Below, one piece after another: positions 39,290 to 56,868 of a stretch of DNA of 64,000 nucleotides. Made by a program: the position numbers and the translations under genes. Under the pieces are notes generated by a model. That model searched no databases and was not told the origin of the DNA. It was given only the letters and a program-made list of their open reading frames with translations. Every line of letters starts with the position of its first letter. Positions within the stretch are counted from its first letter, which is position 1. Source of the stretch: Seonamhaeicola sediminis (GTDB lineage Bacteria > Bacteroidota > Bacteroidia > Flavobacteriales > Flavobacteriaceae); assembly GCF_004358095.2 (NCBI RefSeq), contig NZ_SMZJ02000003.1, positions 62,001 through 126,000 on the forward strand. The letters run 5' to 3'.

Positions 39290-39329
39290 TAAATTCTATT
39301 TGTTACATAATAATTTAAGTTTATTAGTT

Positions 39330-39368
39330 TATAACCCCTTCATAAAATTGATGGGGTTATATTTTTTT
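39330..39368 (+). terminator. intrinsic terminator after the SbtA operon
   Basis: tataacccc (39330-39338) pairs with ggggttata (39353-39361) around a 14-nt loop, followed by seven T residues. It could also partly serve the convergent UbiA gene. Confidence 0.85.
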
Positions 39369-39385
39369 CTAAATTATTATCGTTT

Positions 39386-40363
39386 TCATATTTGTGACTT
39401 TTCAGGTCTAAAAAACAAAAATGCCTCAAAAAAAAGATAGAATATTATAATAACTACTAACCAATTAGGGTGGTTATCTAAAATCACTGCAATTTGCCAT
39501 AATATAAAGCTCCTAACTGTCATTTCAATTGGAATTGAAGCATATGATTCTTCCTTAACCTTTGCTAAATGTGCATATATCTGACCATAAATAGTTAATA
39601 TTGTAGCAATAGATGCTATGCCTATTCCAATCCCTGTTTCTACTATTAATAGAACTAAAACTGTACTTAATAAAACAATAATATCTCCAATCCACACCGT
39701 TCTATTCCAACCAAAAACAACTGGAAAAGTTTTGTATCCAGTTTCTCTATCTGCCGATATATCTTTTAAATAACCCATTAACACGAAATTGGTATAAGAC
39801 ATGAAACTTAATAAAACCAGCATTAATAATTTACTAGAAAATAACTTGGAATCTACAACAGAAATGTATCCCATTATCGGTAATAGAGCCACAATCCAAG
39901 CATTATAAAATGGTCCAACAAACCAAAAGTTCTTTTTAAAATGTGAATATGTTATTAACCCAAAAACACTTAAAGCTCCTAAGATAATATTCCAAAAATT
40001 CAAGTAAACTAAAATCACCACACTTAAAACAAGACCGAGTATACTAACTATTCTAACTGATTTGATTGAAATTACACCTTTTGATAAAGGTCGATAAGGA
40101 GCCGATATTGAATCAGTATCTGTCTGCCATGTATCTGTAAGTGCTTGCCCAAAACCATAACCCAAAAACAACGGAACAAAAGCCAAATATATTGACCATA
40201 AGTTTGTACTGATGTTTTCTGTTACAGCAATAGCTATTCCACTCAATCCTACAATTCCTGATAGGAACAATAAATATGGCCGACACTGTATTAAATAAGC
40301 TTTAAAGAATTTAAAACTAAAAATGGGATAGGTATTTTTCATCATAGAGTTATTTCTATTCAT
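39386..40363 (-). CDS. UbiA-family prenyltransferase
   Basis: This 325-residue polytopic membrane enzyme has two Asp-rich motifs of the UbiA superfamily: TDTWQTDTDS near 76-85, followed by APYRPLSKGVIS, and YLKDISADRETGYKTFP near 198-214. These bind the Mg-diphosphate of an isoprenoid donor. The APYRPLSKG pattern recalls chlorophyll-synthase and geranylgeranyl-glyceryl-type members more than the ubiquinone enzymes. It is the last gene of the seven-gene operon, 10 bp after the DAG-kinase-like gene. The acceptor is unknown but presumably lipid-like. Confidence 0.85.
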   Translation of the reverse strand: MNRNNSMMKNTYPIFSFKFFKAYLIQCRPYLLFLSGIVGLSGIAIAVTENISTNLWSIYLAFVPLFLGYGFGQALTDTWQTDTDSISAPYRPLSKGVISIKSVRIVSILGLVLSVVILVYLNFWNIILGALSVFGLITYSHFKKNFWFVGPFYNAWIVALLPIMGYISVVDSKLFSSKLLMLVLLSFMSYTNFVLMGYLKDISADRETGYKTFPVVFGWNRTVWIGDIIVLLSTVLVLLIVETGIGIGIASIATILTIYGQIYAHLAKVKEESYASIPIEMTVRSFILWQIAVILDNHPNWLVVIIIFYLFFEAFLFFRPEKSQI

Positions 40364-40373
40364 CTTTAATACA

Positions 40374-41318
40374 TTAATGCATTATATATATTGCATTAGG
40401 AACAACTGAAAACCTACAATTTTTTCCTATGAAAACCTCTCCATCTGCCTCAATAGGCATAGGCTTACCGATGAATACTTTTAAACTCTTTAGTTTATAT
40501 GTTTTCCTTTTAGAATTTGGACTAAATTCACCCTTAATAAGAGCAATTAAAGTTCTCAAAAGCTCAAACTTATTCATTCTATCACAATAGTTCAACCCTA
40601 AAACATTATCATTAAAAGATATATTTTGTTCATACCTAAAACTACCTGAAATATTTGGGTTTTTAATTACTGATAAATTAGACAAAGTAATAGTTTCGTT
40701 AATTTTATCATCTATTAATAGTTCTGCGTTATAATTCCTATATAAAAAAATAGTTTTTACAGCAGTAAAAAAAATAGCAGCATCTACCCAATATCTTTTT
40801 AGAAATTTAAGAAAAAACTTTGGATGATTAAACCTATAATTAGCTTCAGCAGTAATACCCATGCTTGCATTTATTATAAAATATCTTGTATGAAAATTCT
40901 TATTAATATCTTCGTATGTAATTTTCCCTACATCATATAATTGACAACTCTTCCAATTAATTTTCACGGGTACATTCTTCACATATTTATTAAAAGGTTT
41001 ATGAAAATCGTTGCTGGAACCCAGACCTATGCCTCCAACATATACTTGCCTAGAGTCACTTTTTTTTATATTTAATAGAACATTAAGCATATAATTCAGG
41101 CTTCCATCACCGCCTGCACTAACAAACCCATCAATTTTTTTATCATGATATAAACTCTTTATCATCCCATTAAAATCACACGGAGGCTCATATGTAATGA
41201 TTTCTGTTTCCGCAGGAAAAATATCAAGTATACTTGAACATATTTCTTCCCACTTATTAGCAGACTTTCCTTGTCTTGCATTTAGATTGACTAATATTAC
41301 TAGTTTTTTTGGTTTCAT
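40374..41318 (-). CDS. diacylglycerol kinase-like lipid kinase
   Basis: This 314-residue protein has the DAGK catalytic fold: the N-terminal VILVNLNARQGKS, the nucleotide-binding GFVSAGGDGSLNYMLN near 65-79, VYVGGIGLGSSNDFHK and, near the end, LKSLKVFIGKPMPIEADGEVF. Members phosphorylate lipid hydroxyls (diacylglycerol, sphingoid bases, ceramide). Its start codon shares one base with the stop of the MMPL gene (TAATG), so translation is coupled. In this operon it may phosphorylate an amino-lipid intermediate. Confidence 0.88.
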   Translation of the reverse strand: MKPKKLVILVNLNARQGKSANKWEEICSSILDIFPAETEIITYEPPCDFNGMIKSLYHDKKIDGFVSAGGDGSLNYMLNVLLNIKKSDSRQVYVGGIGLGSSNDFHKPFNKYVKNVPVKINWKSCQLYDVGKITYEDINKNFHTRYFIINASMGITAEANYRFNHPKFFLKFLKRYWVDAAIFFTAVKTIFLYRNYNAELLIDDKINETITLSNLSVIKNPNISGSFRYEQNISFNDNVLGLNYCDRMNKFELLRTLIALIKGEFSPNSKRKTYKLKSLKVFIGKPMPIEADGEVFIGKNCRFSVVPNAIYIMH

Positions 41319-43564
41319 TAAATATATTTTTTAAACCAGGTTAACATTAGTACGGGAGCCAAAATTAAATCCACCGTCAGAGTTATAAATACCGTTATTC
41401 CTATAAGAATTCCAAGAGTAAATACTTCCATAAATCCAGAACAAATTAATACGCTAAATCCACCTAATAAAATAAAACTAGTACCTAGTATTGCTTTGCC
41501 ACATTCTTCCAAAGCTTTTAAAATTGAATATTTCAAACTACTTCCTTTTTTTCTTTCTAATTGAAAACTACTCAGGAAATGTATGGTATCATCAATAGCT
41601 ATTACAAATCCTATGGTAAAAATAATAGAGGTTGCTCCTCTTAATTCTATACCTGTAAACCCCATTATACCCGCAACAATTAAAATTGGCACAAGGTTTA
41701 AAACTAGGGTCAAAAAAACTAATGCTACTTTTTTATATATATAGCCTAAGGTTATTGCTACAGAAATAATTGCTATTATTAATCCATAAATCATATTATC
41801 TATGCGTACTTTATGTGCTCTATCAACCAAATAATCTTTTCCAGTTATTCTTGCTTGAACTTTTGTGGTATCAATTAATGTGTTTACATAACCTAATATT
41901 TCATTATTTTTTTTATTAATATTCAACCTTCCTATGTCCTTCATTCTTCCCGAAAATTTATAAATACTATGTTCTTCATTAAATAAATAATTTCCATTTT
42001 TAAATACACCTATATGCTTATCATATTTTGAAATACTTTTTTCATCACTAGGAATAGGGTTCGTTTTGAACGAAAAAGGCTTGTAGGCTCTATGAAATAA
42101 TTTATAAAACAAAATTGGTGACTTAACTGAATTTACATAATCTAAACTATCGAGGAAATTTTGAATGTTCAAACCCATTTCTAATATATCGGGTTCATTT
42201 AATTTAATATCTTTTTTTGCTATTAAAAGCAATTCAAAATCTCTTGAGCCACCAAAGTTTTTTTCAAAAAAAGAATAATTATTAGAAAGTTCACTACTAC
42301 TTGGTACATTAGACAATTTATAGTTATTCACATTAATAAAAAAAATCGAAATAACAGAGGCAATTGATATGATTATATATGTTACCAAAACACTTTTAGG
42401 TCGACCATTAAACCATTGAGCTTTCTTAATAATCACTTTTGACAAGTTTTCAAAAAAATTACTTAGTGAAAAAGTAATTTTACTTTTAGTCATTAAGAAA
42501 AATACAGGAGTAAGAGAAACGGTTATTAAATAAACCAAAAGTATTGACAATCCAGCCTCCAAACCAAACTCTCTAATTGCTGGCATTGGAGAAATATACA
42601 TAACAAAAAAACCAATAGCTGTTGTAAAAGAGGTTACAAATGTTGTTTTACCAACTTCTTTTAACGTAACATAAAGTGCTTTTTTTTTGCAAACCTCATT
42701 TACCCTCAACGTATTGTATTTGTATGACAAATGGATGACATCTGAAATTCCAATTATTAATATTATTACTGGAAATAAATTAGCCATAATACCTAATGGC
42801 TTATTAAAGTAAGCCATAACTCCTAAAAAAATGATAAGTGAAACAAAAACGACAACCAATGGAAATATAATTGCAACAAATTTTCTAAATATTAAGACAA
42901 GTGTGACTATTAAAAAAACAAAAAACCAAAGTGTAAAATTTTTTATTTCAATAGAGAGCAAATCCTTGAAGGAAGTTTCAAGGTACTTATCACCAATTAT
43001 ATAAGAGTTTATTGTTAAACTATTTCTTAATTTTTCTAGTTTATTTAATAATACTACCGTATCTCTATTATCTAAATTATCTTCAATTTCAATCCAAACA
43101 AATAAAGCATTACCTTCTTTACTAATGAAGTATTGTGTCCATTCATAATCTTTAAAAACTTTTTTAAGATCTATGGCTATGTTGGAACTATCATCTTTAT
43201 TTAAATAATCTAATTGTGTTAAACCAAGAAACGTATTGTACGGGTAGGATAAATCAATTAATGAACTAACTTTTCTTATTTCAGCAAATCTCTTTAGACT
43301 ATCTATGAAACTTTTAGAAGTATTTAAAAAGGTTTGGTCAAAAGAAAACTTCGGATTCTCTAAAGCTATTACAAGAATATTACTATGATCTTTAAATTGA
43401 GAATTCACTTGTTTATAAAAAGTATACTCTGGGTCATTTTCGGGGAAAAACTGATAAAAATCTGTGTTATACTTTATTCGATTTAATATGGATATAGAAA
43501 AAACCGTAAATACAATTACAATTACTAGTAAAACATAACGATATTTAATCCATTGCTTTATCAT
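41318..43564 (-). CDS. MMPL/RND-family lipid transporter
   Basis: This is 748 residues from the ATG at 43564, which overlaps the upstream stop as ATGA. The two-fold RND layout shows a first helix (YVLLVIVIVFTVFSISIL), a periplasmic loop, a helix block with ILIIGISDVIHLSYKYN, a second loop, and a helix block with FTIGFVIAIDDTIHFLSSF. The GIxDxxH and AIDDTIHF motifs with acidic residues in the proton-relay helix are typical. HpnN/MmpL-type relatives export lipids to the outer membrane. Within this operon it is the likely exporter of the product. Confidence 0.9.
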   Translation of the reverse strand: MIKQWIKYRYVLLVIVIVFTVFSISILNRIKYNTDFYQFFPENDPEYTFYKQVNSQFKDHSNILVIALENPKFSFDQTFLNTSKSFIDSLKRFAEIRKVSSLIDLSYPYNTFLGLTQLDYLNKDDSSNIAIDLKKVFKDYEWTQYFISKEGNALFVWIEIEDNLDNRDTVVLLNKLEKLRNSLTINSYIIGDKYLETSFKDLLSIEIKNFTLWFFVFLIVTLVLIFRKFVAIIFPLVVVFVSLIIFLGVMAYFNKPLGIMANLFPVIILIIGISDVIHLSYKYNTLRVNEVCKKKALYVTLKEVGKTTFVTSFTTAIGFFVMYISPMPAIREFGLEAGLSILLVYLITVSLTPVFFLMTKSKITFSLSNFFENLSKVIIKKAQWFNGRPKSVLVTYIIISIASVISIFFINVNNYKLSNVPSSSELSNNYSFFEKNFGGSRDFELLLIAKKDIKLNEPDILEMGLNIQNFLDSLDYVNSVKSPILFYKLFHRAYKPFSFKTNPIPSDEKSISKYDKHIGVFKNGNYLFNEEHSIYKFSGRMKDIGRLNINKKNNEILGYVNTLIDTTKVQARITGKDYLVDRAHKVRIDNMIYGLIIAIISVAITLGYIYKKVALVFLTLVLNLVPILIVAGIMGFTGIELRGATSIIFTIGFVIAIDDTIHFLSSFQLERKKGSSLKYSILKALEECGKAILGTSFILLGGFSVLICSGFMEVFTLGILIGITVFITLTVDLILAPVLMLTWFKKYI

Positions 43565-44502
43565 AAACACCTAACATCTAAACTTATAAAATCATTTTGA
43601 TCTACAGGGAAAGTGCTACATATCTGGTAAGCATAAGAATTAATTGAAATAGGTTTTAAAACCGAATATAAGCCTGAGCTTTTAGTACAAGCTACTAACA
43701 GGTATCCAATATTTTGCTTTTCCAGAAAATCTAATATGGAGTTTACTTCGTCTTTTGAAGGCATATTATCATAAACTAAGATGCCAAAGTTTAGTTCATC
43801 TCCTTCTTTGGGGAGTTGTTTACTATATGCTTGAAAGAGGGTTAAAATATAATTGATTAACTTAATTAAAAAGTGAAGTTTTCTAATTTTTAAATGATAT
43901 ATAAGGTTTGTTTTCCAAACTCTTGGTTTTCCGTTGATAACGTAAAAATAAGACTTTACTTTTTGTTTATTTATTGGAGTATATACAGTTAATTTTTCAG
44001 AAATAGATTGGTTATAGCTTTTTTTCAATCTTCTGTTGGTTGGTATAGTGAGATACGAAAAAGGGTATTTATAGAGTTTTAGACCTAAAATTCCAGCAGA
44101 TTTACGAACTGCTTTGTTACCTTTTTTCATTGTCAGAAAGACGTTTGAGACGTTGTTAGGTAAATAAAAATTCTTATAAGCGTACATCCCCATTTTCTTT
44201 GTTAAACCTTCTCCCCTTGCATGTTTTGCTACCCTTACATCATAACAATAACCAAGATTCCTTATTGTATTATTAATGACAATTGACACAATTGAGGCAG
44301 CCAAAACACCTAATAATTCACCATTAAAATCAACTGCAAGATATATTTGATACTTTTCAAAATTCTCCGAACGCCTAACAAAAGAATTTTTAACCATTTC
44401 AAGTTGAATCCATTTTCCTTGAAGTGCATTCTTTTCTAAAGCAAGTAAAGCAGTTTCATACTTTTCTGAGTATGGAATTATTTCATATTGAAAACTGTTC
44501 AT
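43561..44502 (-). CDS. GNAT-like acyltransferase with extra C-terminal domain
   Basis: This 313-residue protein has an N-terminal half that follows the GNAT fold: IYLAVDFNGELLGVLAASIV, then YDVRVAKHARGEGLTKKMGMYAY in the acyl-CoA-binding position, and KKGNKAVRKSAGILGLKLYK. The C-terminal 150 residues are unassigned (FGILVYDNMPSKDEVNSILDF). It probably transfers an acyl or amino-acyl group. It overlaps both neighbours by ATGA (44499-44502 and 43561-43564), so it is firmly part of the operon. Confidence 0.7.
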   Translation of the reverse strand: MNSFQYEIIPYSEKYETALLALEKNALQGKWIQLEMVKNSFVRRSENFEKYQIYLAVDFNGELLGVLAASIVSIVINNTIRNLGYCYDVRVAKHARGEGLTKKMGMYAYKNFYLPNNVSNVFLTMKKGNKAVRKSAGILGLKLYKYPFSYLTIPTNRRLKKSYNQSISEKLTVYTPINKQKVKSYFYVINGKPRVWKTNLIYHLKIRKLHFLIKLINYILTLFQAYSKQLPKEGDELNFGILVYDNMPSKDEVNSILDFLEKQNIGYLLVACTKSSGLYSVLKPISINSYAYQICSTFPVDQNDFISLDVRCL

Positions 44503-45554
44503 AACTTTTCTACTAAATGAACTTTGTACATTTTAGTGCTTTCCATATTTGAAACATCTTTAATCTTATATCCCAATGCTGTAATTTTTTTGATAATATC
44601 AGTATCAATATGATTTCTTAAGTAAGATCTAAACACAAAAGCACATTTACATTTATTAGATACTTTCAAAGCTTTTATACATTTTATAACATAGTCTGTT
44701 TTATGAAAACTTAAAATATCAGACATTGATAAAAAAACATTAAAATTAAATGTTGTAGAGGTATTATCCTCAAGAAAGCTCAATGCGTCATTATTTATAA
44801 ATTGTATTTTAATCTCTCTGTTTTTTAATTTGGCCTGTATTTTTTTTAAAATTTTCCGGTTTTGAGAAGCAGGTAAAAACTCTATATCCATTTGTTTTAA
44901 TGACCCCAAAAAAACAAGATGTGCCATAAAAGATTTGTGGAATTCTTTTTTGTCAATTAATTCTTGAAAGCCATTGGTAATTAATGAGGTATCCACCCCT
45001 TTGCCAATAAATGCAGGATCTTTATTACCTAATAACAAATAACTTACTTTTTTTGAGAAAACACTTTTTACAATTTTCCATCTAAACTTTGAAAAACTAT
45101 TATAATCATTATTAAAAACTTTCATAAACGAAGGCCCTAAAAACCATTTCAATAAAGGTCTGGCTTTAGATAGAAATTGTTCGTATTGACCAATGTATAG
45201 TATCCCCTTTTTGATAAAATGATGGTTTTTACTCCAATAAATTATCGTAGAAGATTCCAATTTATTTTGGAGTTTTATAAAACACCGCATTCTTTCTCTT
45301 GAAGACATTTCTTCAGCACCAATAAATCTCAAATAGTCCTCTACATCTAGCTCACTTAATGCTACTAATTTCAATTTTAATAATTCAATAGCACTCATAT
45401 TTGTATCAACTACAAACAACTGTTCCAAGTTGGCATTATCAAGTAATGCAATGAGTCTTTCACCACTACCTGCAACTGCAATTACCGAGTTATATCCCGT
45501 GCTGCAAACTATTTCTGGTAAGGAGTCTTCGTTAACATGAGAATACCAAATCAT
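44499..45554 (-). CDS. DUF3419/BtaA-like aminocarboxypropyl transferase
   Basis: This 351-residue protein has the SAM-binding start NSVIAVAGSGERLIALLDN near 22-40 and VVDTNMSAIELLKLKL, typical of DUF3419. BtaA members transfer the 3-amino-3-carboxypropyl group of SAM to diacylglycerol, the first step to betaine lipids. The expected methyltransferase partner BtaB is not seen. The gene begins one base after the stop of the oxoamine synthase (TGA-T-ATG). A homoserine-type lipid head group is a reasonable inference. Confidence 0.8.
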   Translation of the reverse strand: MIWYSHVNEDSLPEIVCSTGYNSVIAVAGSGERLIALLDNANLEQLFVVDTNMSAIELLKLKLVALSELDVEDYLRFIGAEEMSSRERMRCFIKLQNKLESSTIIYWSKNHHFIKKGILYIGQYEQFLSKARPLLKWFLGPSFMKVFNNDYNSFSKFRWKIVKSVFSKKVSYLLLGNKDPAFIGKGVDTSLITNGFQELIDKKEFHKSFMAHLVFLGSLKQMDIEFLPASQNRKILKKIQAKLKNREIKIQFINNDALSFLEDNTSTTFNFNVFLSMSDILSFHKTDYVIKCIKALKVSNKCKCAFVFRSYLRNHIDTDIIKKITALGYKIKDVSNMESTKMYKVHLVEKL

Positions 45555-45555
45555 A

Positions 45556-46836
45556 TCATGAAGTTTTTACAGAATCTTGCCACACTTTTTCTAAACAGCT
45601 CACCAGTTTATCGATATCTTGCAACGTATGTTCTGCTGAAATGCTAATTCTGAATCGTTGATCATTTTGAGATACCGCAGGAAACTCAATGGCATTTAGA
45701 AATACGCCCATCTTATCAAGCTGAACATTTGCCTTTCGAATATTTATCCATTCTGGCACTCTAACAGAAATAATTGCAGCCTTAGGCTCTGCTGTTAGCT
45801 CAAATTTTTGAAGTTTCTCAATTGTATATCTTGTATTTTCTAAAACTTTTTTTCGTCTCCATGGTTCATTTTCAATAAGGTCTAATCCTGCTAAAACAGA
45901 TGCTATTGTAATTGGCGGAAGTGCAGCCGAAAACACATAGGGCCTAGAATAATAACGGATATAATCTATTAGATCTCTATTGGCTGACAAGAAGCCTCCA
46001 GTTAAAGCAAATACTTTACTAAACGTTCCCATAGAAATATCAATCTCTTTCTCCAGTTTAAAGTACTCTGCAGTTCCACCTCCATTTTCTCCTAATATAC
46101 CAGTACCATGTGCATCATCTAATATAAGTGCAGCACCATATTTTTTACACTTGTTTACTATTTGCGGTAATTCTGCTAAATCTCCATCCATGGAGTAAAC
46201 ACCTTCAACACAAACAAACGTTTCTTTATAGTTTTTTGATTCCAATTTAATTAAAACATCCTGTAAGGATTCTAAATTATTATGTTTAAAAGTAATGAGA
46301 TTAGCATTGTTAAGTTTAATACCATCATATAACGAAGCATGACTATATTTATCTAAAACAAAATTATTTTGCTTTGTTGAAATAGCCGAAACCAGCCCTA
46401 AATTAGCCATATATCCTGATGGAAAAATGAGGGTGCCTTCTTTCTTTTTCAGAGTTGAAAGTCTTTCTTCTAATTCTTTCATAAGAGAAGTATAACCATT
46501 CAATAAAGGAGGTCCCCCAACACCTGTGCCATATTTTTTTAAAACAATTCCTATTTTTTCCTGTATATATGGATGATTAGCAAACCCTAGGTAATTATTA
46601 GAGGCAAACATGAGCATTTTACGTTCCTTATTTAGTTCTTTATCGAACACTAACACCGTTCTTCCTGTTGCAGATACAATTATTCTTCTATATGTAAATT
46701 GCTTATTTGCTTCTAGCGAATTCAACATTACATTAAAATTGAAACTTTTATCTTTTAGTGAATTATTTCTATTCGCTTTTTCAAAATGATACAAATCATT
46801 TTTTTCCTCTGGTGTTTGTTTTAACAAATTTCTCAT
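45556..46836 (-). CDS. alpha-oxoamine synthase (AONS/serine palmitoyltransferase-like)
   Basis: This 426-residue PLP enzyme of the family includes 8-amino-7-oxononanoate synthase, 2-amino-3-ketobutyrate ligase and serine palmitoyltransferase. Features are FASNNYLGFANHP near 77-89, the ring-stacking His166 in KYSHASLYDG, DDAHGTGILG near 240-249 and the PLP lysine 274 in MGTFSKVFALTGG. An N-terminal extension of about 75 residues is longer than in BioF. It condenses an amino acid with an acyl-CoA or acyl-ACP, releasing CO2. No other biotin genes are near, so a sphingolipid- or sulfonolipid-like base is a better guess than biotin. Confidence 0.88.
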   Translation of the reverse strand: MRNLLKQTPEEKNDLYHFEKANRNNSLKDKSFNFNVMLNSLEANKQFTYRRIIVSATGRTVLVFDKELNKERKMLMFASNNYLGFANHPYIQEKIGIVLKKYGTGVGGPPLLNGYTSLMKELEERLSTLKKKEGTLIFPSGYMANLGLVSAISTKQNNFVLDKYSHASLYDGIKLNNANLITFKHNNLESLQDVLIKLESKNYKETFVCVEGVYSMDGDLAELPQIVNKCKKYGAALILDDAHGTGILGENGGGTAEYFKLEKEIDISMGTFSKVFALTGGFLSANRDLIDYIRYYSRPYVFSAALPPITIASVLAGLDLIENEPWRRKKVLENTRYTIEKLQKFELTAEPKAAIISVRVPEWINIRKANVQLDKMGVFLNAIEFPAVSQNDQRFRISISAEHTLQDIDKLVSCLEKVWQDSVKTS

Positions 46837-47852
46837 AATCGCATTTCTTTATCTAGTTTCAATAACTCCATCATATATTGTTCTGGGCTTTTAATATGTT
46901 GTTTTTCGTAAAGATTAGTTGTCTCAAAAGGATTTATTGATATGCCATCAATATTAGTAAGCAGTTTTTGTTTGTTAGTAACCTCTCCTAACCTAATGGG
47001 TCTCCAATGAATTCGTTTTGCCTCGTCCTCAAACTTCTGAACATTTTTCAAAGGAATTGTAAATAATAGTTCATATTCACCATGTGGTCCACACATAAAA
47101 ATCCAATGAGGTAAACCTGTTTCTTTACAAATTTTTAAACAAGAATTGTGAAGCATATCCTTGAATAAAATATTAAGATTAAACCCTAAGTTGTTCACCT
47201 CCATTAATTGACATAATGCAGGGAATAAACCATCACTTGTATCTATACATGAACTGGCAAATTTGCTGAGTAATTGACCTTCTTTAATTTTAGCTTTTGG
47301 TAAATATTCACTTTTAGTGTTTGATATAAAACGAGAATAAGCGTAAGAAGAGCCCAAGCCTACATTATCTGAAACATATAAAACATCTGAGGCACTCAAG
47401 CCTTTTCTCATGAGTTTATTTTCACAAAACCCAAGGGCGGTAGACCCAACCTGAAGTATGTTATTTTTATTAGTATCACCACCAAAGACATAACAACCAT
47501 AAAAATCACAAGCATCATTTATTCCCTGTTGTAAGTTTTTCAAACGAATAGCATCAAAGTGTTTTGGAACTTTTAAATCTAACAACACACCCAACACTTT
47601 AGCTCCAACTGCAGCAAGATCACTTACACTAACTGTTATGGCCATCCATCCTATTTGGTAAGCATCTTCATAAAGCCCTTCTTCAATTTCTTCTACAATG
47701 GCATCATAGGTTATTGCCAAAATTTTATCATTGTTAAAACCTATCAATTCAGCATCCGACTCGAAAATAGCATTAAGCTGAAATGGCGCTCTAGAAAAGG
47801 ATCCAACCATTGATTTTAAATTCTCATTTTCTGTAATTCTGTAATGATTCAA
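46833..47852 (-). CDS. ThiL/AIR-synthase-like ATP-dependent kinase
   Basis: This 339-residue protein has the AIR-synthase/ThiL fold: ITYDAIVEEI, VSDLAAVGAKVLG near 76-88, FGGDTNK near 122-128, and SSCIDTSDGLFPAL. These motifs bind Mg-ATP in thiamine-monophosphate kinase, but no thiamine genes are near, so the substrate may differ. The open frame starts with TTG at 47852; the first ATG is at 47810. This is the first gene of the seven-gene operon, overlapping the next by ATGA. Confidence 0.78.
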   Translation of the reverse strand: MNHYRITENENLKSMVGSFSRAPFQLNAIFESDAELIGFNNDKILAITYDAIVEEIEEGLYEDAYQIGWMAITVSVSDLAAVGAKVLGVLLDLKVPKHFDAIRLKNLQQGINDACDFYGCYVFGGDTNKNNILQVGSTALGFCENKLMRKGLSASDVLYVSDNVGLGSSYAYSRFISNTKSEYLPKAKIKEGQLLSKFASSCIDTSDGLFPALCQLMEVNNLGFNLNILFKDMLHNSCLKICKETGLPHWIFMCGPHGEYELLFTIPLKNVQKFEDEAKRIHWRPIRLGEVTNKQKLLTNIDGISINPFETTNLYEKQHIKSPEQYMMELLKLDKEMRL

Positions 47853-47972
47853 ATCTTGAAATTTTTAAACAATTAAAAGTTAAAAAAAAAGTGGCTACAT
47901 CTAACAAAATCAGGATTCGAATTATTTTTAAACCAAACAAATGACTACTGATAAAAAACGCCTCTCATAAAA

Positions 47973-48452
47973 TTAAATTTCAGATATAAATTCTTTAAAT
48001 TCATTCCATTTAGATTGTTTGCCTTCAATAATGAAAACTCTTGTTTTTTTAAACAATATTGTAGCCACCTATAGCCGCACCCGCAGGTGCGCCTAAGACC
48101 ACTCCTGTTTTGGTATTATCTCCTCTAGAAAAAAAACTGTCGGACTCAAATAAAGTAGCTCCAGAAATTGCTCCAACTGTTGTGCCTATTAAAATACCCA
48201 TACCAAAATTATGCCCTCCTAATCGCTTTGTTTTTATCTTCCAAATATCATTTGCCCTTATTTCTACTTTTTTATTATTACTTTTTGTAAGTATGAGCAT
48301 ATCTTCACTAACAGAGTATATATATCCCTTTCCTATTTTTTTCCTTCAAGGTTAAAGACTCTTAAAAATGTGTTCTTATTTGTACTTTGGGAAAACCCGT
48401 TTAACATAAAAAGAAATAGGATGCTCTTTAAAATGATTTTTATTGTTTTCAT
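47973..48452 (-). pseudogene. frame-disrupted glycine-zipper exported protein
   Basis: The gene starts at the ATG at 48452 with a good signal peptide (SILFLFMLNGFSQ). The frame hits a TAG (48335-48333) straight after an A7 run, and the protein continues in the -1 frame (GKGYIYSVSEDMLIL). It then runs through a glycine-rich helix pair until TAA (48051-48049) at a second A7 run. The expected C-terminus (KTRVFIIEGKQSKWNEF) continues in a third frame to the stop at 47975-47973. The total is 480 bp, or 160 codons. Signal, middle and tail all parallel the intact gene at 49446-49970. The A7 run in register (GGA AAA AAA TAG) also looks like a -1 slippery site, but two breaks favour decay, phase variation or sequence error. 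Confidence 0.75.
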
Positions 48453-48471
48453 AATCGAAATATTAAAGATT
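48445..48471. repeat. direct repeat, copy 1 (module junction)
   Basis: This 27-bp segment spans the start of the broken glycine-zipper gene and the end of the upstream barrel gene. It matches 49963-49989 except at two positions. Confidence 0.7.
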
Positions 48472-49116
48472 GAATTTTATACCAAAACTGGTTAATACAT
48501 TTTCTACTTTGTATGTTTTTTTTCCAAAGAGGTTTACAACGTGCCCTTTTTTACTTCCTGTAAACGATTCAACATCAAGGTATATAGCTGTTTTTTTATT
48601 TATAGAATAGTTTAATCCAGCTCCAGAGACAACATTTCCGTATTGTTTTGGATAATCGATTGATATATTGTTTGAGTAATTGCTATAAGTACTTTTAGTT
48701 TCAATATTAAATGCATACCCAATTTTAAGATTTGCTTTTAAATTCTTATAAACCCCAAATTCCCATTTTACACTAAAAGGTAATGCTACTACTGACCCTT
48801 CAAAGGTTCCTGAGTATTGATCTCTACAAAAAACACAAAATGGGTCACTAGAACTAGGTTGAAAAAAAGAAACTCCAGTATTAAATTTCTTTACCTTAAC
48901 CGATAAACTCCAATGTTTGGAAAAATAGTATTCTGCTAAAATCCCGCCTTGAAAGGAAGTATTAGATTCTCCATTGTTAAAAGAGTTAATTTTGTTTATT
49001 CCCATTTCTACTCCAAAATACCATTGCCCTTTTGGATTTATAATTTCGTTTGTTTGAGATATCACACTCCCAGAAAATAAACTTAGACATATAATAATCA
49101 ATATTGTTTTAATCAT
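48463..49116 (-). CDS. outer-membrane beta-barrel protein, unknown
   Basis: This 217-residue protein has a signal peptide (ILIIICLSLFSGSVISQ) and alternating amphipathic strands: GQWYFGVEMGINKI, FQGGILAEYYFSKHWSLSVKVK, LNYSINKKTAIYLDVE and the C-terminal TSFGIKFNL ending in a hydrophobic residue. Two Cys in DPFCVFCRD could form a disulfide in a loop. It looks like a small porin-type or OmpW-like barrel of unknown role. It is the middle gene of the second lipoprotein-barrel-zipper module. Confidence 0.75.
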   Translation of the reverse strand: MIKTILIIICLSLFSGSVISQTNEIINPKGQWYFGVEMGINKINSFNNGESNTSFQGGILAEYYFSKHWSLSVKVKKFNTGVSFFQPSSSDPFCVFCRDQYSGTFEGSVVALPFSVKWEFGVYKNLKANLKIGYAFNIETKSTYSNYSNNISIDYPKQYGNVVSGAGLNYSINKKTAIYLDVESFTGSKKGHVVNLFGKKTYKVENVLTSFGIKFNL

Positions 49117-49154
49117 TTTAAATTTTATTTGTTGTTTTTAAGCTGTTTAATAAT

Positions 49155-49421
49155 TTATCTACTCGTTCTAGTAGCTTCACAATATTCATCTCCAACTTTA
49201 TAGATTTCACTAATAATGCTATCAGCCTCTACCGTATCATATCTTAATGAGCCATCTGGCAACTTTACTGTTATATGATGGTATCCACTTAAATTTACAA
49301 AAGAGGCAGACCATGTTATATCTGTTATTGTACCGCAATCTATATCTGGATCTTTTGAACATCCTAGACATGTGGCGAAACAAAAAACTATTACTATGGT
49401 AAATTTTAATAAAGTTTTCAT
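49155..49421 (-). CDS. small lipoprotein, unknown
   Basis: This 88-residue protein has a lipobox (CLGC, lipid Cys21) following a hydrophobic signal. The mature part is short, with SKDPDIDCGTITDITWSA and two more cysteines (residues near 29 and 82). No family is recognised. It lies 38 bp upstream of the barrel gene at 48463-49116 and parallels the lipoprotein gene at 50558-51028 at the head of the other module. Confidence 0.65.
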   Translation of the reverse strand: MKTLLKFTIVIVFCFATCLGCSKDPDIDCGTITDITWSASFVNLSGYHHITVKLPDGSLRYDTVEADSIISEIYKVGDEYCEATRTSR

Positions 49422-49445
49422 TTTATGATTATTTATATCTGTATT

Positions 49446-49970
49446 TTATTCCGATTGCTTTACCATAGCGTATCTATTAAGTTCTTCATATTTTGCTTTA
49501 AAAACGCTCTCATATCCATTGATTATAAATTCCTTTCTTCTTATGCCTAGTAATGCTCCAATTGGTGCTCCTAAGGCAACTCCAATTGCTACTGCAGCGG
49601 CCTCATTTGAAACCAATGAGCCACCATCTCCAGAAACCATCATAAGCTCTACAACTACAGCTATGCCTAACATTCCTGTTAGTGCACTTCTCCAAACTTT
49701 TCCTCTCCTTTTAATATAAACCTCATAAATATCCTTAGCATTTATTGTTGTAATCTCGTTTAAATCTTTTAAAGATTTTTTTGAAACAATCTTTAGAGAT
49801 GTATCATCTACCGCATACAAAAAACCCTTTTGTTTGGTTTTATCAGTAAGCTCTACCCATATCTTATAAATTTTTACTTTTTTAGTTTCCTCTTGTGAAT
49901 TTACTTTGAAACACAATAAAAGTGTTAAGCATAGTATTACTGTACTTAAATGGATTGTCATTGTTTTCAT
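49446..49970 (-). CDS. exported glycine-zipper protein, unknown
   Basis: This is 174 residues from the ATG at 49970; the frame extends to 50054 but the signal peptide starts here (VILCLTLLLCFKVNSQ). A beta-rich part (IWVELTDKTKQKGFLYAVDD, INAKDIYEVYIKRRGK) is followed by two hydrophobic small-residue helices (MLGIAVVVELMMVSG and VAIGVALGAPIGALLGI) that resemble glycine zippers. It ends EFIINGYESVFKAKYEEL. It is the intact relative of the broken gene at 47973-48452. The helices might insert in a membrane. Confidence 0.7.
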   Translation of the reverse strand: MKTMTIHLSTVILCLTLLLCFKVNSQEETKKVKIYKIWVELTDKTKQKGFLYAVDDTSLKIVSKKSLKDLNEITTINAKDIYEVYIKRRGKVWRSALTGMLGIAVVVELMMVSGDGGSLVSNEAAAVAIGVALGAPIGALLGIRRKEFIINGYESVFKAKYEELNRYAMVKQSE

Positions 49971-49989
49971 AATTGAAGTATTAAAGATT
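49963..49989. repeat. direct repeat, copy 2 (module junction)
   Basis: This 27-bp counterpart of 48445-48471 differs at two positions and covers the start of the glycine-zipper gene. Together the copies mark a tandem duplication. Confidence 0.7.
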
Positions 49990-49998
49990 TCTACTTTT

Positions 49999-50541
49999 TC
50001 AAAACCTAAAATTAACACCAAGGTTAATTGATGATGAATTATATCCGTTCTCACTAATTGATGTATATGAAAGTGCTAGGTCTAACTTTTCTTTTACTTT
50101 ATATGCAAATAAAGGTCTAAAGAAAAACCCTCCAGTTTCCTCATCTATAAAACTACCATCACTATCACCAAACCCATTGGCATTTAGAGCATAACCAATA
50201 TCCAATCCTATATAAAATAACTCTGAAAGCTTTACTCTGGATGCCATTGCAATAGGAATAAACACATCTGGAATTGAACTAAATAATCCACCTGAGTCAT
50301 CAGCATTATTGCCTTCACCTAGAAATACAAGTGCACCCGCAGTTGCTCCTATATAAATATCATCTGATACACTCCATAAATATTGAAAATCAGCTTGAAG
50401 TGTATATAAGAAATATTCACTTGAATCTCCTAAAGTTGGACCAACACTAATAGCTATTCTAAACCCTTTTTGAGCATAAACTGAAGAGGTAATCAAAAAA
50501 AGAGTTCCGAAAACGAATAATCTAAAATACTTTTTATACAT
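49999..50541 (-). CDS. outer-membrane beta-barrel protein, unknown (second)
   Basis: This is 180 residues from the ATG at 50541; a GTG six bases upstream is in frame. A signal peptide (FGTLFLITSSVYAQ) is followed by strands FRIAISVGPTLG, TLQADFQYLWSV, IYIGATAGALVF, and the C-terminal INLGVNFRF. The ending in F is typical of outer-membrane barrels. It is the middle gene of the first module, parallel in position to 48463-49116, though sequence similarity by eye is low. Confidence 0.72.
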   Translation of the reverse strand: MYKKYFRLFVFGTLFLITSSVYAQKGFRIAISVGPTLGDSSEYFLYTLQADFQYLWSVSDDIYIGATAGALVFLGEGNNADDSGGLFSSIPDVFIPIAMASRVKLSELFYIGLDIGYALNANGFGDSDGSFIDEETGGFFFRPLFAYKVKEKLDLALSYTSISENGYNSSSINLGVNFRF

Positions 50542-50557
50542 AATCACTGTTTTTAAA

Positions 50558-51028
50558 TTATATTCTTACATATTCCATATAATAGAGTGATGAAGCATCA
50601 GTATCATCACACAGTTCATTATCGTACTGACCTATTTTTAGTGTATTTCCTGAAATCTCAAAAAAAGTAATCTCTATATTATTTCCTGAGCCATTTTCTA
50701 TAACCGTCACCGTCAATTCATTCCCATTTATTGCCCATGTATCATTTGATGCGCCATCATCTTCACAAACATTATTATACTCATAGAAAGAATTTTCAAC
50801 CCAAGTGCCGTTAGAACTAACAGTTAATCGTCCTGTTTGTTCACAAGCTGAACTGATTACAACCTCATCTCCACTAGTACATGAAAAAACAAATTTTACT
50901 GGTTTCCATTCTCCAATGAACTGTTCTGACAAAGTATCTTTTTTTTCTTCATTCACATCATTATTACTAGAACATCCTAAACATAGAATCATCAATACAA
51001 TGAAACTTTTAACAAATAATTTTTTCAT
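50558..51028 (-). CDS. lipocalin-like lipoprotein
   Basis: This is 156 residues from the ATG at 51028, with lipobox CLGC (lipid Cys about 19), followed by SSNNDVNEEKKD and a lipocalin-like beta domain: LIGEWK-type start (FIGEWKPVKFVF), GRLTVSSNGTWVEN, TWAINGNELTV and FEISGNTLKIG. Several cysteines suggest disulfides. The family binds unknown small ligands at the outer membrane. It heads the first module, 16 bp before a barrel gene. Confidence 0.7.
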   Translation of the reverse strand: MKKLFVKSFIVLMILCLGCSSNNDVNEEKKDTLSEQFIGEWKPVKFVFSCTSGDEVVISSACEQTGRLTVSSNGTWVENSFYEYNNVCEDDGASNDTWAINGNELTVTVIENGSGNNIEITFFEISGNTLKIGQYDNELCDDTDASSLYYMEYVRI

Positions 51029-51034
51029 AATCAA

Positions 51035-51362
51035 GTTTTTTTAAATTTTACATTGATAAAACTCATATCTAACAAATAGCAATTAGTTACTCCAAAAGTA
51101 GACCTGAAATAAATTTTGCTCTTTAACTATTTTGTCAAAACTTGGGAGTATTTAAGCACACTTTACAACAAACCCTTTAGATTCCTTAATCTCATTAAGC
51201 ACTTTTATTAAAAAGAACCCTATAAATTCTACCCCCTTTTATAGTTTTCTTAGCTGTAACCCAAAGCTACATTATAATTACTACATGAATGTCCTAAAAA
51301 AAGTATGGTAGATTATTTAGGACATGTTTTAATCTCTTTGTAACCTCTAACTTTATAGTGTG
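51035..51362. other. intergenic region with a hairpin
   Basis: This is 328 bp without a gene between two minus-strand groups. The notable element is a 10-bp inverted repeat atgtcctaaa (51289-51298) / tttaggacat (51316-51325) with a 17-nt loop, beyond the SDR stop at 51363. No T-run follows on the minus strand. It could be a weak terminator of the SDR group or a binding site for the module downstream. Confidence 0.5.
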
Positions 51363-52163
51363 TCATAATTTAGTTTTAGGCCTATTTTTTTCTTGAATCT
51401 TCCTAACAATAGATGTTGCTATATCTCTTGGAACAAACCTTGATACAAAAGCAATAAATTTATTAAGATACCCAGGAACCGCAATTGTTTTTCCTTCCAT
51501 CATAGCAGTATAACCATATTGGGCAACGGTTCTAGCATCTGCAATATTGATATTAATTTTATTAGGTGTAGATGATACAGAAACCTCTTTTTGAAATCCG
51601 GTTTTAGTCTGTCCGGGACATAAAACTGTTACCGTAACTCCGCTACCTTTCAATTCATTTGCTATAGCTTGTGAAAATGATAAAATATAGGCCTTTGAAG
51701 CGTAGTAAATAGCCATTAAAGGCCCTGGTTGAAAAGCAGCTAATGAAGCTACATTTAATATCCTTCCGCAACCATGCCTTGCCATAGGGCTTAAAGCAAG
51801 TTTTGTTAATTGCGTAGTGGTATTAACATGGAGATTTAACATCTTTGATTCTAATTGCCAATTGGTACTTGTAAAATGCCCGAAAAGACCAAAGCCTGCA
51901 TTATTAATTAAAACATCAACAGTTGTATCTAATTCTTTAAATATTTCCTCAGCGACATTATGTCTACTCAAATCTTTGACTAATGTTTTTATTACTACAG
52001 GATATTTGCTTTCAATTTGCCTCTTTGTTTTATTAAGTTGTAAATTATCTATATCTACCAATACAAGGTTATATCCATCTTTAGCTAATAATAACGAAAA
52101 CTCAAACCCAAGTCCGGATGCTGCACCAGTTACTAAAGCTGTTTTATACTTTATTCTTTTCAT
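51363..52163 (-). CDS. short-chain dehydrogenase, fatty-acyl type
   Basis: This 266-residue SDR has TGAASGLGFEFSLLLA near 14-29, NNAGFGLFG, the catalytic LNVASLAAFQPGPLMAIYYASKAY (Ser, Tyr, Lys) and LCPGQTKTGF. The sequence resembles DltE/YqjQ-type SDRs with wide substrate range, often acting on lipids. Its start overlaps the stop of the sterol-desaturase gene by 4 bp (52160-52163), so they are coupled. The C-terminus has a hydrophobic piece and a basic end (KIQEKNRPKTKL). Confidence 0.85.
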   Translation of the reverse strand: MKRIKYKTALVTGAASGLGFEFSLLLAKDGYNLVLVDIDNLQLNKTKRQIESKYPVVIKTLVKDLSRHNVAEEIFKELDTTVDVLINNAGFGLFGHFTSTNWQLESKMLNLHVNTTTQLTKLALSPMARHGCGRILNVASLAAFQPGPLMAIYYASKAYILSFSQAIANELKGSGVTVTVLCPGQTKTGFQKEVSVSSTPNKININIADARTVAQYGYTAMMEGKTIAVPGYLNKFIAFVSRFVPRDIATSIVRKIQEKNRPKTKL

Positions 52164-53062
52164 AATTTCTGTTTTAATAATTCTTTTTGAAGTTGTCTTG
52201 TTGTAAGTGTCTTTCTATCTGGACTCCATCCAGGTGGATAAAAAATATATTTTAACTTATTTAACCAACTAGATGTGTTTTTTACATCTTTTAAAATACT
52301 ATAAAACTCGTGCGTATTTAAAATAAATGGGTTATGGGTTTTTGGGTCTTTTAATATTCCTAATTGGGGTTCAATTTCAGCAACATAGGGTTTATATGTC
52401 CCAAACAATTTATCCCATATAATCAATATACCTCCATGGTTTTTATCTAGAAGATATTCTAGATTACATGAATGGTGTACAATATGCAGTTTTGGTGTGT
52501 TAAATATTCTTTCAAATATTCCAAGATTAGGAACCATTTGGGTATGCAAAAAAAATTGATATATACTATTTATGATTAAGCAACCAGCTATCATTAATGG
52601 TTCAAAACCCATTGCTGCCATCCATACCCAATAAATTGGTTTATATAAACTAATAAACCAGCCATTACGCAAACCAATAATAAAGTTAAAAGATTTGCTG
52701 GAATGATGTGGCACATGTGCCGCCCAAAGTAATCTTATACTATGACTTAACCGATGATGCCAATAAAAATTGAAATCATCACATAGTATTGCCAAAATCC
52801 AAATATACCAACTCCAACCTAAAGAATTATAACAAAAAAAATCTAATCTTAATTCTTTAAATACATTAAAAAAGAGAATAAAAACCCCTAAGGTGAAAGT
52901 TTTTGATATCAAAGACATTATAGAAGCGCCTATGCCAATAGCAATTCCTGAAAGTGACTCTTTTAGATCAAAATAATGACGAGCCAATAGATATTCAAAT
53001 ACTATCAAAAAACTAAATACTGGAATAACATATTTAGACAATTCATTTAATTCTAGTTCCAT
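52160..53062 (-). CDS. sterol desaturase/fatty acid hydroxylase family membrane protein
   Basis: This 300-residue integral-membrane protein has the histidine clusters of the superfamily: FYWHHRLSH, AAHVPHHSS, FFLHTQMVP and LHIVHHSCNLEYLLDKNHGG. These bind a di-iron site and hydroxylate, desaturate or cleave lipid chains with O2; alkylglycerol-monooxygenase-like members exist. The gene overlaps the SDR by ATGA and is 43 bp after a DUF6134 gene. A lipid modification role is inferred, the substrate unknown. Confidence 0.85.
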   Translation of the reverse strand: MELELNELSKYVIPVFSFLIVFEYLLARHYFDLKESLSGIAIGIGASIMSLISKTFTLGVFILFFNVFKELRLDFFCYNSLGWSWYIWILAILCDDFNFYWHHRLSHSIRLLWAAHVPHHSSKSFNFIIGLRNGWFISLYKPIYWVWMAAMGFEPLMIAGCLIINSIYQFFLHTQMVPNLGIFERIFNTPKLHIVHHSCNLEYLLDKNHGGILIIWDKLFGTYKPYVAEIEPQLGILKDPKTHNPFILNTHEFYSILKDVKNTSSWLNKLKYIFYPPGWSPDRKTLTTRQLQKELLKQKL

Positions 53063-53105
53063 AATAAAATGTTTTTAGTTTATTCTACTTTTTACTTCCT
53101 TCAGT

Positions 53106-53798
53106 TCATAAAATCTCAGGCACAAGTTTCACTTTATAAAATGGCCCCTTAGCTTCAATCATGGTACACTTGCCGTTCTCATAATGATATACATTACTAG
53201 TATTATGGGAGAAATTTATTTTATATTTACCATTACCTAGAGGTATAATGGAAATCATTTTTTTGAACTTATCTGAATATATTTTTTTAACGTTGATTGG
53301 TTCATTAAAAAAGAGCGTAATTAAATTTCTGTAAATTACATTAAGGCTAAGTGCCTCGGTAGCATCCAAACTTTTTAGAACATATTGTCCTTCAACAAGT
53401 GACAATGACTGATTTAATTTTACTTTATCATTTAACTTTCTAAAAATTGATGAATAAACTAAAGCTCCTTCTTTATAAATTGATTTTTCCTCTGCTTCAA
53501 TATCAAACTCAACAATGAATTTGGCTTTTATTTTACTGCTTAAAGTATATGCTATAGAGTTGCCTAATTTTTCCCTTTTAATAGTTATAGACCCTACCGA
53601 TTTATTGTTTTTCACAATTCTATATGTTATTGTTTTAGGTAATCTATTTAAATTGCTTGCGCCTGCATTTGTTACAAAAAAGATAAAAACAAAACATATT
53701 CCACGTCCAAAGATTCTTTTAAAAGCATTGAATTTTTTAATAATACTCTTACCAAAAGTGGACTGCTTTAAAATGTAGATAATTAACATTGGTATCAT
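53106..53798 (-). CDS. DUF6134-like exported protein
   Basis: This 230-residue protein has a basic N-region, then a hydrophobic signal (GICFVFIFFVTNAGAS). The mature part is beta-rich: ITYRIVKNNKSVGSITIKRE, AKFIVEFDIEAEEKSIYKEG and YRNLITLFFNEP. I recognise it as similar to DUF6134 proteins of unknown function. The start is at the ATG at 53798 (a second Met lies three codons on). It precedes the sterol-desaturase/SDR pair on the same strand, probably in one transcript. Confidence 0.7.
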   Translation of the reverse strand: MIPMLIIYILKQSTFGKSIIKKFNAFKRIFGRGICFVFIFFVTNAGASNLNRLPKTITYRIVKNNKSVGSITIKREKLGNSIAYTLSSKIKAKFIVEFDIEAEEKSIYKEGALVYSSIFRKLNDKVKLNQSLSLVEGQYVLKSLDATEALSLNVIYRNLITLFFNEPINVKKIYSDKFKKMISIIPLGNGKYKINFSHNTSNVYHYENGKCTMIEAKGPFYKVKLVPEIL

Positions 53799-53910
53799 AA
53801 CACTTTGCTTTTACGATTAATAACAATCATAAAATTACAGGCATGATATCATGTAATTATCCTATAAGGTCTAGGAAGTAAGAATTAGGATGTCCAACGA
53901 TAATCTTGGA

Positions 53911-55053: not shown

Positions 55054-55387
55054 AATAACTTAACAACTATAATCTCGGGGAGAAACGTAAAATAATTAAC
55101 TCTGTTATCTGACAGAAAAGCCATCACACAACAAAAGCTAAGATAATAAAAACTTAATAATAAGGATTATAGCACAGTAATATAAGTGTGTAGTGAATTT
55201 ATAATGAGGAAAACTATACAATAACTAACAATAGATCATTATTAAATACTAAGATTTGTATTTTTAATTTTCTCTTTATATTCCTTGTTTATGATAAAAT
55301 AAAAGAGATAACTATCAATCATTTCTAGAATAAGTTTGCCCTGTCTTTGTATTTTATTTTGAATTGCTCCAATCATTTTAATAAATT
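55054..55387. other. AT-rich intergenic region
   Basis: This is 334 bp without a convincing gene, upstream of the AraC-type gene. I see no strong hairpin with a T-run and no good TAnnTTTG pair on the minus strand. A short tctgt/acaga inverted repeat near 55100 is too weak to call. Confidence 0.4.
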
Positions 55388-55666
55388 TTAAAGTAAAACA
55401 ATTTGTTTTATGTGATTAATATTCAATAATATTTTCTTTATCTGTCCATTTATCTTATTCACGCCAAAATAGGTGCCAGATTCAATTCCAATCTCTATAA
55501 GGTTTAAAATTTCGTTTTCAATAGTTATTATTTCAACACAACTCAATTTTTTAATAGCCTGATTTAATTGGTTACATTTTTCTTTATACGCCTTTATCAT
55601 AGAAACACTTGGCAAAGACCAAAAAAGGAAAATTCCCGTTGTTTTTATGTTATTGTTTGTTTTCAT
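55388..55666 (-). CDS. unknown small protein
   Basis: This 92-residue protein has a start at the ATG at 55666. The sequence is rich in Ile, Asn and Lys, with KKLSCVEIITIENEILNLIEIGIESGTYFGVN, and lacks a signal or a clear membrane helix. No family is recognised. It is isolated between an AraC gene and a divergent HTH gene. It may be real, but codon bias in AT-rich DNA makes chance open frames of this size possible. Confidence 0.4.
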   Translation of the reverse strand: MKTNNNIKTTGIFLFWSLPSVSMIKAYKEKCNQLNQAIKKLSCVEIITIENEILNLIEIGIESGTYFGVNKINGQIKKILLNINHIKQIVLL

Positions 55667-55804
55667 TTATTGACATATAACTGATTCTGATACAAATTTA
55701 CTTTGCGAATATTGATAATCATTAGACCATAACCATAAATCTTTAAATAACTTTTTGTACTTTTCACAAGCACTATTAACTTTCCTACTTGTAATTCTCA
55801 AAAA

Positions 55805-56803: not shown

Positions 56804-56868
56804 CCACTCTATTTGTTAAATCTTGTTAAAAACTTGCTTTTTAGATTATTTACAATATATTATTGGCT

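Follow-up and report, generated by a model that had tools for sequence, protein, structure and literature searches.

Lipids whose synthesis is initiated by an alpha-oxoamine synthase (AOS), such as sphingolipids and sulfonolipids, are bioactive between Bacteroidota and their hosts. The operon described here comprises seven genes at 39386-47852 of a 64,000-nucleotide stretch of the Seonamhaeicola sediminis genome (contig NZ_SMZJ02000003.1, positions 62,001 to 126,000; the window hereafter), and it encodes an AOS, a ThiL-like and a DAGK-like kinase, a UbiA-superfamily prenyltransferase, a DUF3419 protein, a GNAT-like protein and an MMPL transporter. Several described systems resemble it in part. 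The sulfonolipid (capnine) pathway, with CapA and SulA/CapB, also has an AOS-type first step in Bacteroidota. However, in this genome that pathway sits elsewhere, no match to the operon kinases or UbiA was found around its CapA-linked AOS, and the AOSs of the cluster family carry Ala and not the Lys281 of SulA. Bacterial sphingolipid synthesis (serine palmitoyltransferase (SPT), 3-ketoreductase and ceramide synthase) shares the AOS fold, whereas the operon adds the ThiL-like protein and UbiA, and its AOS has Pro-Pro at the Ser81-Arg82 positions of SPT. With betaine lipid synthesis by BtaA and BtaB the operon has DUF3419 in common, but here this gene is paired with a GNAT-like gene and not with an N-methyltransferase. 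The operon UbiA keeps the Asp-rich motifs of the archaeal digeranylgeranylglyceryl phosphate (DGGGP) synthase but has a motif of its own, LGYGFGQALTD..Q.DTD..S...RPL, conserved in an alignment of 16 proteins.

ThiL is the nearest NCBIfam model for the ThiL-like protein, which belongs to the same family and scores 147.7-148.2 bits, below the TIGR01379 cut-off of 184.15. In these proteins the GGD and DxSDG motifs are kept with small variations, but GGEDYE is replaced in 26 of the 26 aligned; four of them (L044, L046, L049 and L056) are more divergent. The ebo operon (EboA-F) is also UbiA-containing, through the UbiA-like EboC. According to PMC5133447, it is a mobile operon of Bacteroidetes, cyanobacteria and eustigmatophyte plastids whose product is not known, and a search of that paper found neither "oxoamine" nor "kinase". 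The EboC model gives the operon UbiA 26.9 bits, against a cut-off of 250. No description of this gene set was found among the open-access literature matches listed, and this agrees with the initial annotation of the locus, to which no pathway with all seven families was known. The cluster family is apparently undescribed. With a probability of roughly 0.62, we read it as a modular, patchily distributed operon that would make a specialised lipid or lipid-like metabolite.

The initial annotation had described the seven families as a coupled series on the minus strand, and both the coordinates of the open reading frames (ORFs) and Pfam bear this out (Table 1). In the ORF list of the window, seven coupled minus-strand ORFs run from 47852 down to 39386. 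The ThiL-like and AOS genes overlap at 46833-46836, a 1-bp gap at 45555 separates AOS from DUF3419, and DUF3419 overlaps GNAT at 44499-44502. The MMPL ORF as mechanically called begins at a GTG at 43570; with its start at the in-frame ATG at 43564, it overlaps GNAT at 43561-43564. Base 41318 is common to the MMPL and DAGK genes, and a gap at 40364-40373 lies between DAGK and UbiA. The Pfam scores were 70.3 bits for the AIRS N-terminal domain of the ThiL-like protein (cut-off 24), 157.3 for Aminotran_1_2 in the AOS (19.7), 73.7 for DUF3419 (gathering score 28.2), a borderline 25.6 for Acetyltransf_9 in the GNAT-like protein (25), 98.4 for MMPL (20.5), 36.7 for DAGK_cat (23.6) and 30 for YegS_C (27) in the DAGK-like protein, and 96.4 for UbiA (34.2). 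In the NCBIfam scan of the seven proteins, no listed model scored at or above its cut-off.

Table 1. Position of the operon genes and of related features in the window.
Feature	Coordinates	Strand	Remarks
ThiL-like (AIRS/PurM fold) kinase, paralogue of thiamine-phosphate kinase	46833..47852	-	TTG start; altered GGEDYE motif
AOS (pyridoxal 5'-phosphate (PLP), BioF/SPT fold)	45556..46836	-	cluster signature GPPxLNG; Pro at SPT Ser81
DUF3419 protein, distant BtaA-type relative	44499..45554	-	predicted model matches methyltransferase folds weakly
GNAT acyl/acetyltransferase-like protein, probably tandem GNAT	43561..44502	-	4-bp overlap with the DUF3419 gene
MMPL/RND (HAE3-type) transporter	41318..43570	-	probable ATG at 43564; optional across the cluster family
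YegS/DAGK-type lipid kinase	40374..41318	-	GGDG and GSSNDFHKP motifs
UbiA-superfamily prenyltransferase	39386..40363	-	DGGGP synthase is the nearest solved relative
SDR oxidoreductase, tentative candidate ketoreductase for the AOS product	51363..52163	-	same variable segment as the operon
Fatty-acid-hydroxylase family protein, tentative tailoring enzyme	52160..53062	-	4-bp overlap with the SDR gene
Segment of about 18 kb absent from two congeners that share its flanks	39322..57311		approximate borders, taken from BLAST match ends

Related loci were collected by scanning a one-genome-per-species collection (84,980 species) with a pattern from the UbiA alignment, which gave 20 loci, and by searching 395 phylum genomes with a UbiA profile at E <= 1e-50, which matched 7 of them and gave new loci in five of those. 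Two duplicates, L040 (the L022 locus) and L024 (the L058 locus), were dropped before counting, and the final set was 25 loci plus the window (n = 26). Gene presence was called at E <= 1e-5 within the DNA around each locus; L043, L046, L050, L054, L057, L059 and L089 end early, and more distant genes may be missed there. The names of the loci span about five orders (Flavobacteriales, Cytophagales, Bacteroidales, Chitinophagales/Saprospirales and Rhodothermales), and the nearest named one is that of S. aphaedonensis, with a 96% identical UbiA. The independent cases are fewer than 26, since several loci are close kin: two Seonamhaeicola and Hyunsoonleella, four Dyadobacter, two Lunatimonas and two Draconibacterium. 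The contig of L055 is labelled Williamsia (Actinomycetota) and its AOS groups with Chitinophagaceae/Lunatimonas in the AOS tree; this locus, counted among the 26, is probably a mis-binned contig.

UbiA, as the search key, is present in 26/26 loci by construction. The DAGK-like and ThiL-like genes were also found in all 26, the AOS in 21, DUF3419 in 14, GNAT in those same 14, and MMPL in five. DAGK adjoins UbiA at every locus, at most 185 bp apart, and the ThiL-like gene adjoins the AOS in 21 of the 21 AOS-bearing loci. At loci whose core is interrupted by DUF3419, MMPL or other genes, the ThiL-like gene stays with the AOS and not with DAGK. Of the 14 loci with the DUF3419-GNAT pair, 13 show a 4-bp overlap of the two genes, and in L043 GNAT directly follows DUF3419. 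As a control, the 20-kb neighbourhoods of the true thiL, of two further AOS genes and of four further UbiA genes in the window's genome were examined, and no other operon family appeared there at E <= 1e-3; the stretch around the CapA-linked AOS contained a second, weak AOS-type match. The operon genes are not chance neighbours, and their distribution over Bacteroidota is scattered and sporadic.

The unit is a core of AOS, ThiL-like, DAGK-like and UbiA genes with variable tailoring and transport genes, because the core partners are near-constant while DUF3419 with GNAT and MMPL come and go. The co-occurrence of the seven families elsewhere, which the initial annotation had left to a gene-neighbourhood search, was found in that search: besides the window, 4 of the 25 other loci (L022, L041, L043 and L059) hold all seven in the same order. 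Its reading of the genes as an operon that combines lipid-type biosynthetic enzymes with an exporter is supported as well. The seven genes as a unit fared less well, as the operon is real and recurrent but its unit is the four-enzyme core, the other three genes being optional.

DUF3419 is rare and a poor search key for the cluster. With the own genome counted, it was found in 18 of 395 phylum genomes, in 2 of 7 congeners and in 3 of 199 family genomes, where two of the three matches are weak. Among 17 widened DUF3419 neighbourhoods (L022-L038), the cluster was present in L022 and L024 only; L023 has a match of 32% identity on a 4.2-kb contig, too short to judge the cluster, L036 gave no match whatever, and the remaining ones, L028 (described below) apart, lacked the core set and held stray partners only (a weak UbiA in L032, and MMPL in both L030 and L037). 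A genome with a distant DUF3419 match (G325) has UbiA, DAGK, ThiL-like, AOS, MacB/FtsX permease, ABC ATPase, DUF3419 and GNAT genes in a row. The plasmid search returned a single weak match for DUF3419, from Rhizobium, and none for UbiA.

Concerning the AOS, the window protein shows the features of its family: a fold-type I PLP enzyme with the AOS motifs, the His over PLP and the catalytic Lys in TFSK. Its best solved matches are the S. multivorum SPT structures 8guh and 3a2b. The NCBIfam BioF model gives it 344.1 bits (cut-off 426.45), and the bioF-like AOS of the genome itself reaches only 345.5, so these cut-offs cannot name the enzyme. The Ser81 of S. multivorum SPT contacts the carboxylate of the substrate through a water bridge, using its main-chain NH and side chain (PMC10196870). 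Pro109 of the window AOS aligns with this residue (phmmer alignment), and the position is Pro in 21/21 cluster AOSs; the four non-cluster AOSs compared have Ala or Ser there, Ser being found in a Dyadobacter SPT-like AOS. The Pro-Pro pair replaces Ser81-Arg82 in all 21; Pro at the Arg82 position is not cluster-specific, since it also occurs in a Dyadobacter AOS (L072) that has Ser at the preceding position. Lys281 in the active site of SulA has been proposed to tell sulfonolipid from sphingolipid enzymes (PMC9304779). Ala occupies this position in the 21 cluster AOSs and Lys in the CapA-linked AOS. The EYPAV motif has its Glu in 20 of these 21 enzymes, whereas the four from outside the cluster lack it. 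Because Pro replaces Ser81 and Ala replaces Lys281, the cluster AOS probably uses neither serine nor cysteate, and these residues disagree with the sphingoid or capnine-like enzyme of the initial annotation.

In the AOS tree, the 21 cluster enzymes are set apart by a branch supported at 69/98 only and recovered in 66% of 200 bootstrap trees; the tree has 29 rows, with no named reference enzymes among them, and five of nine extra non-cluster loci yielded no row. A role of the operon in biotin synthesis is made very unlikely by the separate bioF-like AOS on contig C12, and one in sulfonolipid synthesis by a CapA on C34 (650.6 bits, cut-off 600) beside a different AOS. The linkage to cysteate synthase expected of SulA/CapB was not found for the operon AOS, since CapA adjoins the other enzyme.

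Members of the ThiL family phosphorylate a phosphate monoester. The true thiL of the genome lies on contig C45 (319.5 bits, above the cut-off), and its presence makes a thiamine synthesis role for the operon very unlikely. The DAGK-like protein has the DAGK_cat and YegS_C domains and the GGDG motif of YegS/DAGK lipid kinases, a family that also includes sphingosine kinases. UbiA matches PF01040, all 16 aligned proteins retain its two Asp-rich motifs, and its profile finds the DGGGP synthase 6m31 first among solved structures (E 2.2e-12), followed by chlorophyll synthase. A PcrB/geranylgeranylglyceryl phosphate (GGGP) synthase match was found in 8 of the 13 cluster genomes tested, that of the window included. 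The co-occurring GGGP synthase expected of a DGGGP synthase is thus missing, as a PcrB match, from five of the 13, and a plain archaeal-type route cannot be general.

The DUF3419 protein is a remote member of its family: its 73.7 bits compare with 265.4 for another protein of the phylum in which DUF3419 is fused to PEMT. For this reason aminocarboxypropyl transfer to a lipid hydroxyl, the BtaA reaction, is a guess. Its predicted model (predicted local distance difference test score, pLDDT, 87.8) gave weak methyltransferase-fold matches, the nicotianamine-synthase-like MtNAS among them, and no match at E <= 0.001 in the fold search. The initial annotation had suggested structure prediction for the GNAT-like protein. 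Most of the length of its AF2 model (pLDDT 89.1) aligns with Eis-like proteins (2hv2, 3n7z) and N-myristoyltransferases, with TM-scores (query length) of 0.41-0.61 among the 50 matches listed. The superposition is loose, and Pfam detects one GNAT domain. From the model the protein is probably a tandem GNAT, and N-acylation is guessed from its resemblance to these two groups. The capnine-linked GNAT-like protein (L063) has no clear relation to it (hhalign probability 15%). At L028 (9076-10986), DUF3419 is fused to a PEMT-type methyltransferase domain beside a DAGK-like gene, with an AOS 4.4 kb off; this is probably a real betaine-lipid locus in Bacteroidota.

The genes around the core differ among loci. 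A B12-type radical SAM gene lies beside it in L049, L087, L088 and L089 (hidden Markov model (HMM) match), L044 (BLAST), and L046 and L056 (clustering), and an SDR gene in L044, L049 and L089 (HMM), and L046 and L056 (clustering). L053 has a NodU-type carbamoyltransferase, a DUF3089 protein and a fatty-acid hydroxylase; L052 has a P450 and a fatty-acid desaturase; and L042 has a DUF3089-like protein (BLAST) and, nearby, genes for a sulfotransferase and a radical SAM protein. ABC transport genes occur in L058/L024. In L042, whose cluster is AOS-less, a 507-aa ORF without Pfam or NCBIfam match (7529-9049) lies directly upstream of DAGK-UbiA.

The following route would be consistent with these genes. 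In a condensation by the AOS, an acyl thioester and an amino acid that is neither serine nor cysteate would give a 2-amino-3-ketone, and a linked SDR, where present, would reduce the ketone (tentatively that of Table 1 in the window). The DAGK-like kinase would then phosphorylate a lipid hydroxyl and UbiA would prenylate that phospholipid, as DGGGP synthase does. The ThiL-like protein would convert a phosphate monoester of the pathway to the diphosphate, the reaction of its family. In the version found here, DUF3419 could move an aminocarboxypropyl or other group derived from S-adenosylmethionine (SAM) to the product, and the GNAT-like protein could N-acylate it. Export would be carried out by MMPL, or by an ABC system in the Rhodothermales version. 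The middle part as written, from lipid phosphorylation and prenylation through the ThiL-like diphosphate to the DUF3419/GNAT modification, is doubtful. Equally speculative is the broader proposal of new prenylated or diphosphorylated AOS-derived lipids, made with a ThiL-fold lipid-phosphate kinase, a YegS-type kinase and UbiA, in which the four-gene core would stay fixed while SAM-derived head groups and radical-SAM, P450 or carbamoyl decorations are swapped from species to species.

Other explanations have to be considered. The two kinases could act in series, the DAGK-like and then the ThiL-like one turning a lipid or prenol alcohol into the mono- and the diphosphate that UbiA uses as donor, with phytol salvage as an analogy for this logic. 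The presence of both kinases with UbiA in 26/26 loci, the five AOS-less ones included, would fit, as would the kept GGD and DxSDG motifs of a family acting on phosphate monoesters. However, UbiA enzymes normally draw their donors from the allylic diphosphates that the cell already makes, and in split cores the ThiL-like gene remains with the AOS and not with DAGK. The DAGK product as UbiA acceptor would explain why these two genes lie side by side, and this pairing makes us favour the acceptor model, although the data are not decisive; the donor model is possible, if somewhat unlikely.

The product could also be a small prenylated or acylated natural product (a signal, pigment or inhibitor) begun by the AOS, and not a membrane lipid. 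The UbiA clade is indeed sporadic, as the 7 of 395 phylum genomes indicate, the cluster is present or absent among congeners, and P450, NodU-type carbamoyltransferase and B12-type radical SAM genes, as well as the sulfotransferase near L042, would suit such a compound. On the other hand, DAGK/YegS, MMPL, the N-myristoyltransferase-like GNAT model and the fatty-acid desaturase and hydroxylase point to long-chain substrates, and we consider this option unlikely. It is far less probable that the operon makes an archaeal-type ether lipid, with UbiA as a true DGGGP synthase acting on the product of the GGGP synthase homologue of the genome. This would agree with the nearest solved relative of UbiA, with the PcrB/GGGP synthase in the genome of the window and with the proposal that FCB bacteria make such lipids (PMC7852524), but a PcrB match is missing from five of 13 cluster genomes and PcrB lies far from the operon in the window's genome and in the congener G581, and the AOS and ThiL-like protein are left unexplained. 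A disguised thiamine, biotin, betaine-lipid, sphingolipid or capnine operon, suggested by the family names of single genes, is hardly credible given the dedicated thiL, bioF-like AOS and capA/AOS elsewhere in the genome, the lack of the Ser81 and Lys281 features and the sporadic spread.

Several points weigh against a lipid operon of this kind. Every locus was collected via UbiA, and the sample covers UbiA-bearing clusters only. A dedicated AOS is missing from the four Dyadobacter clusters and L042, so the AOS is not universal in the cluster family; the genomes of these loci have other AOSs only (best 258 bits, versus 437 for a true cluster AOS of Draconibacterium), and in each Dyadobacter genome the top-scoring one bears the SPT-like GSR motif. 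L042 differs further in its ThiL-like gene, which lies 1.8 kb from UbiA and on the other strand. The Pfam family matches of DUF3419 and GNAT are weak, the profile search found no solved relative of DUF3419, and the GNAT-like model superposes on the 50 matches listed only with a root-mean-square deviation of 6.4-12.3. The SDR and hydroxylase genes of the window lie 3.5 kb beyond the ThiL-like gene, with other genes between, and tailoring by P450, carbamoyltransferase and radical SAM enzymes fits non-membrane natural products equally well.

Regarding the history of the locus, the match to the window runs to 38959 in the congener G583 and to 39321 in the congener G584, and within about 310 bases it resumes at 57312-57321, before a sigma-factor gene. 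One small gene of the segment (window 49410-49989) has copies in G583, on the other side (locus L094), and three further congeners had no match to the flanking transporter used as probe. In Hyunsoonleella (L041) the operon lies at the same left flank as in the window; hence loss in G583 and G584 is as possible as gain in the others. The sole tRNA of the window (61044) is outside the segment, and no integrase was detected in Pfam scans of the operon and 11 further proteins of the segment. The DNA identity between the window and the sister species G581 (L022) is 95-97% for UbiA, DAGK, MMPL and GNAT, and 82%, 78% and 76% for DUF3419, AOS and the ThiL-like gene. Hyunsoonleella is about as distant in these last three (79%, 81% and 77%). 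This suggests that the ThiL-AOS-DUF3419 half (44499-47852), the half that would set the product, has been exchanged as alleles.

Beside the operon, window positions 48463-51034 encode a series of small outer-membrane barrel, lipocalin-like and other proteins, partly common to Hyunsoonleella (L041). A family of 332-336 aa is encoded near the cluster at four loci, two of them close kin (window 55805-56803, L046:11772-12779, L049:13218-14225 and L056:13145-14152); the window copy has no Pfam match and the L046 copy resembles a helix-turn-helix regulator by eye.

If the proposed lipid operon is real, it would represent an additional lipid class, whose synthesis links a further type of AOS, with another amino-acid pocket, to two kinases and a prenyltransferase, and the ThiL fold would gain a role in lipid metabolism. 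The common core with differing tailoring would also allow comparative lipidomics of Dyadobacter, Draconibacterium, Lunatimonas and Seonamhaeicola to find the product.

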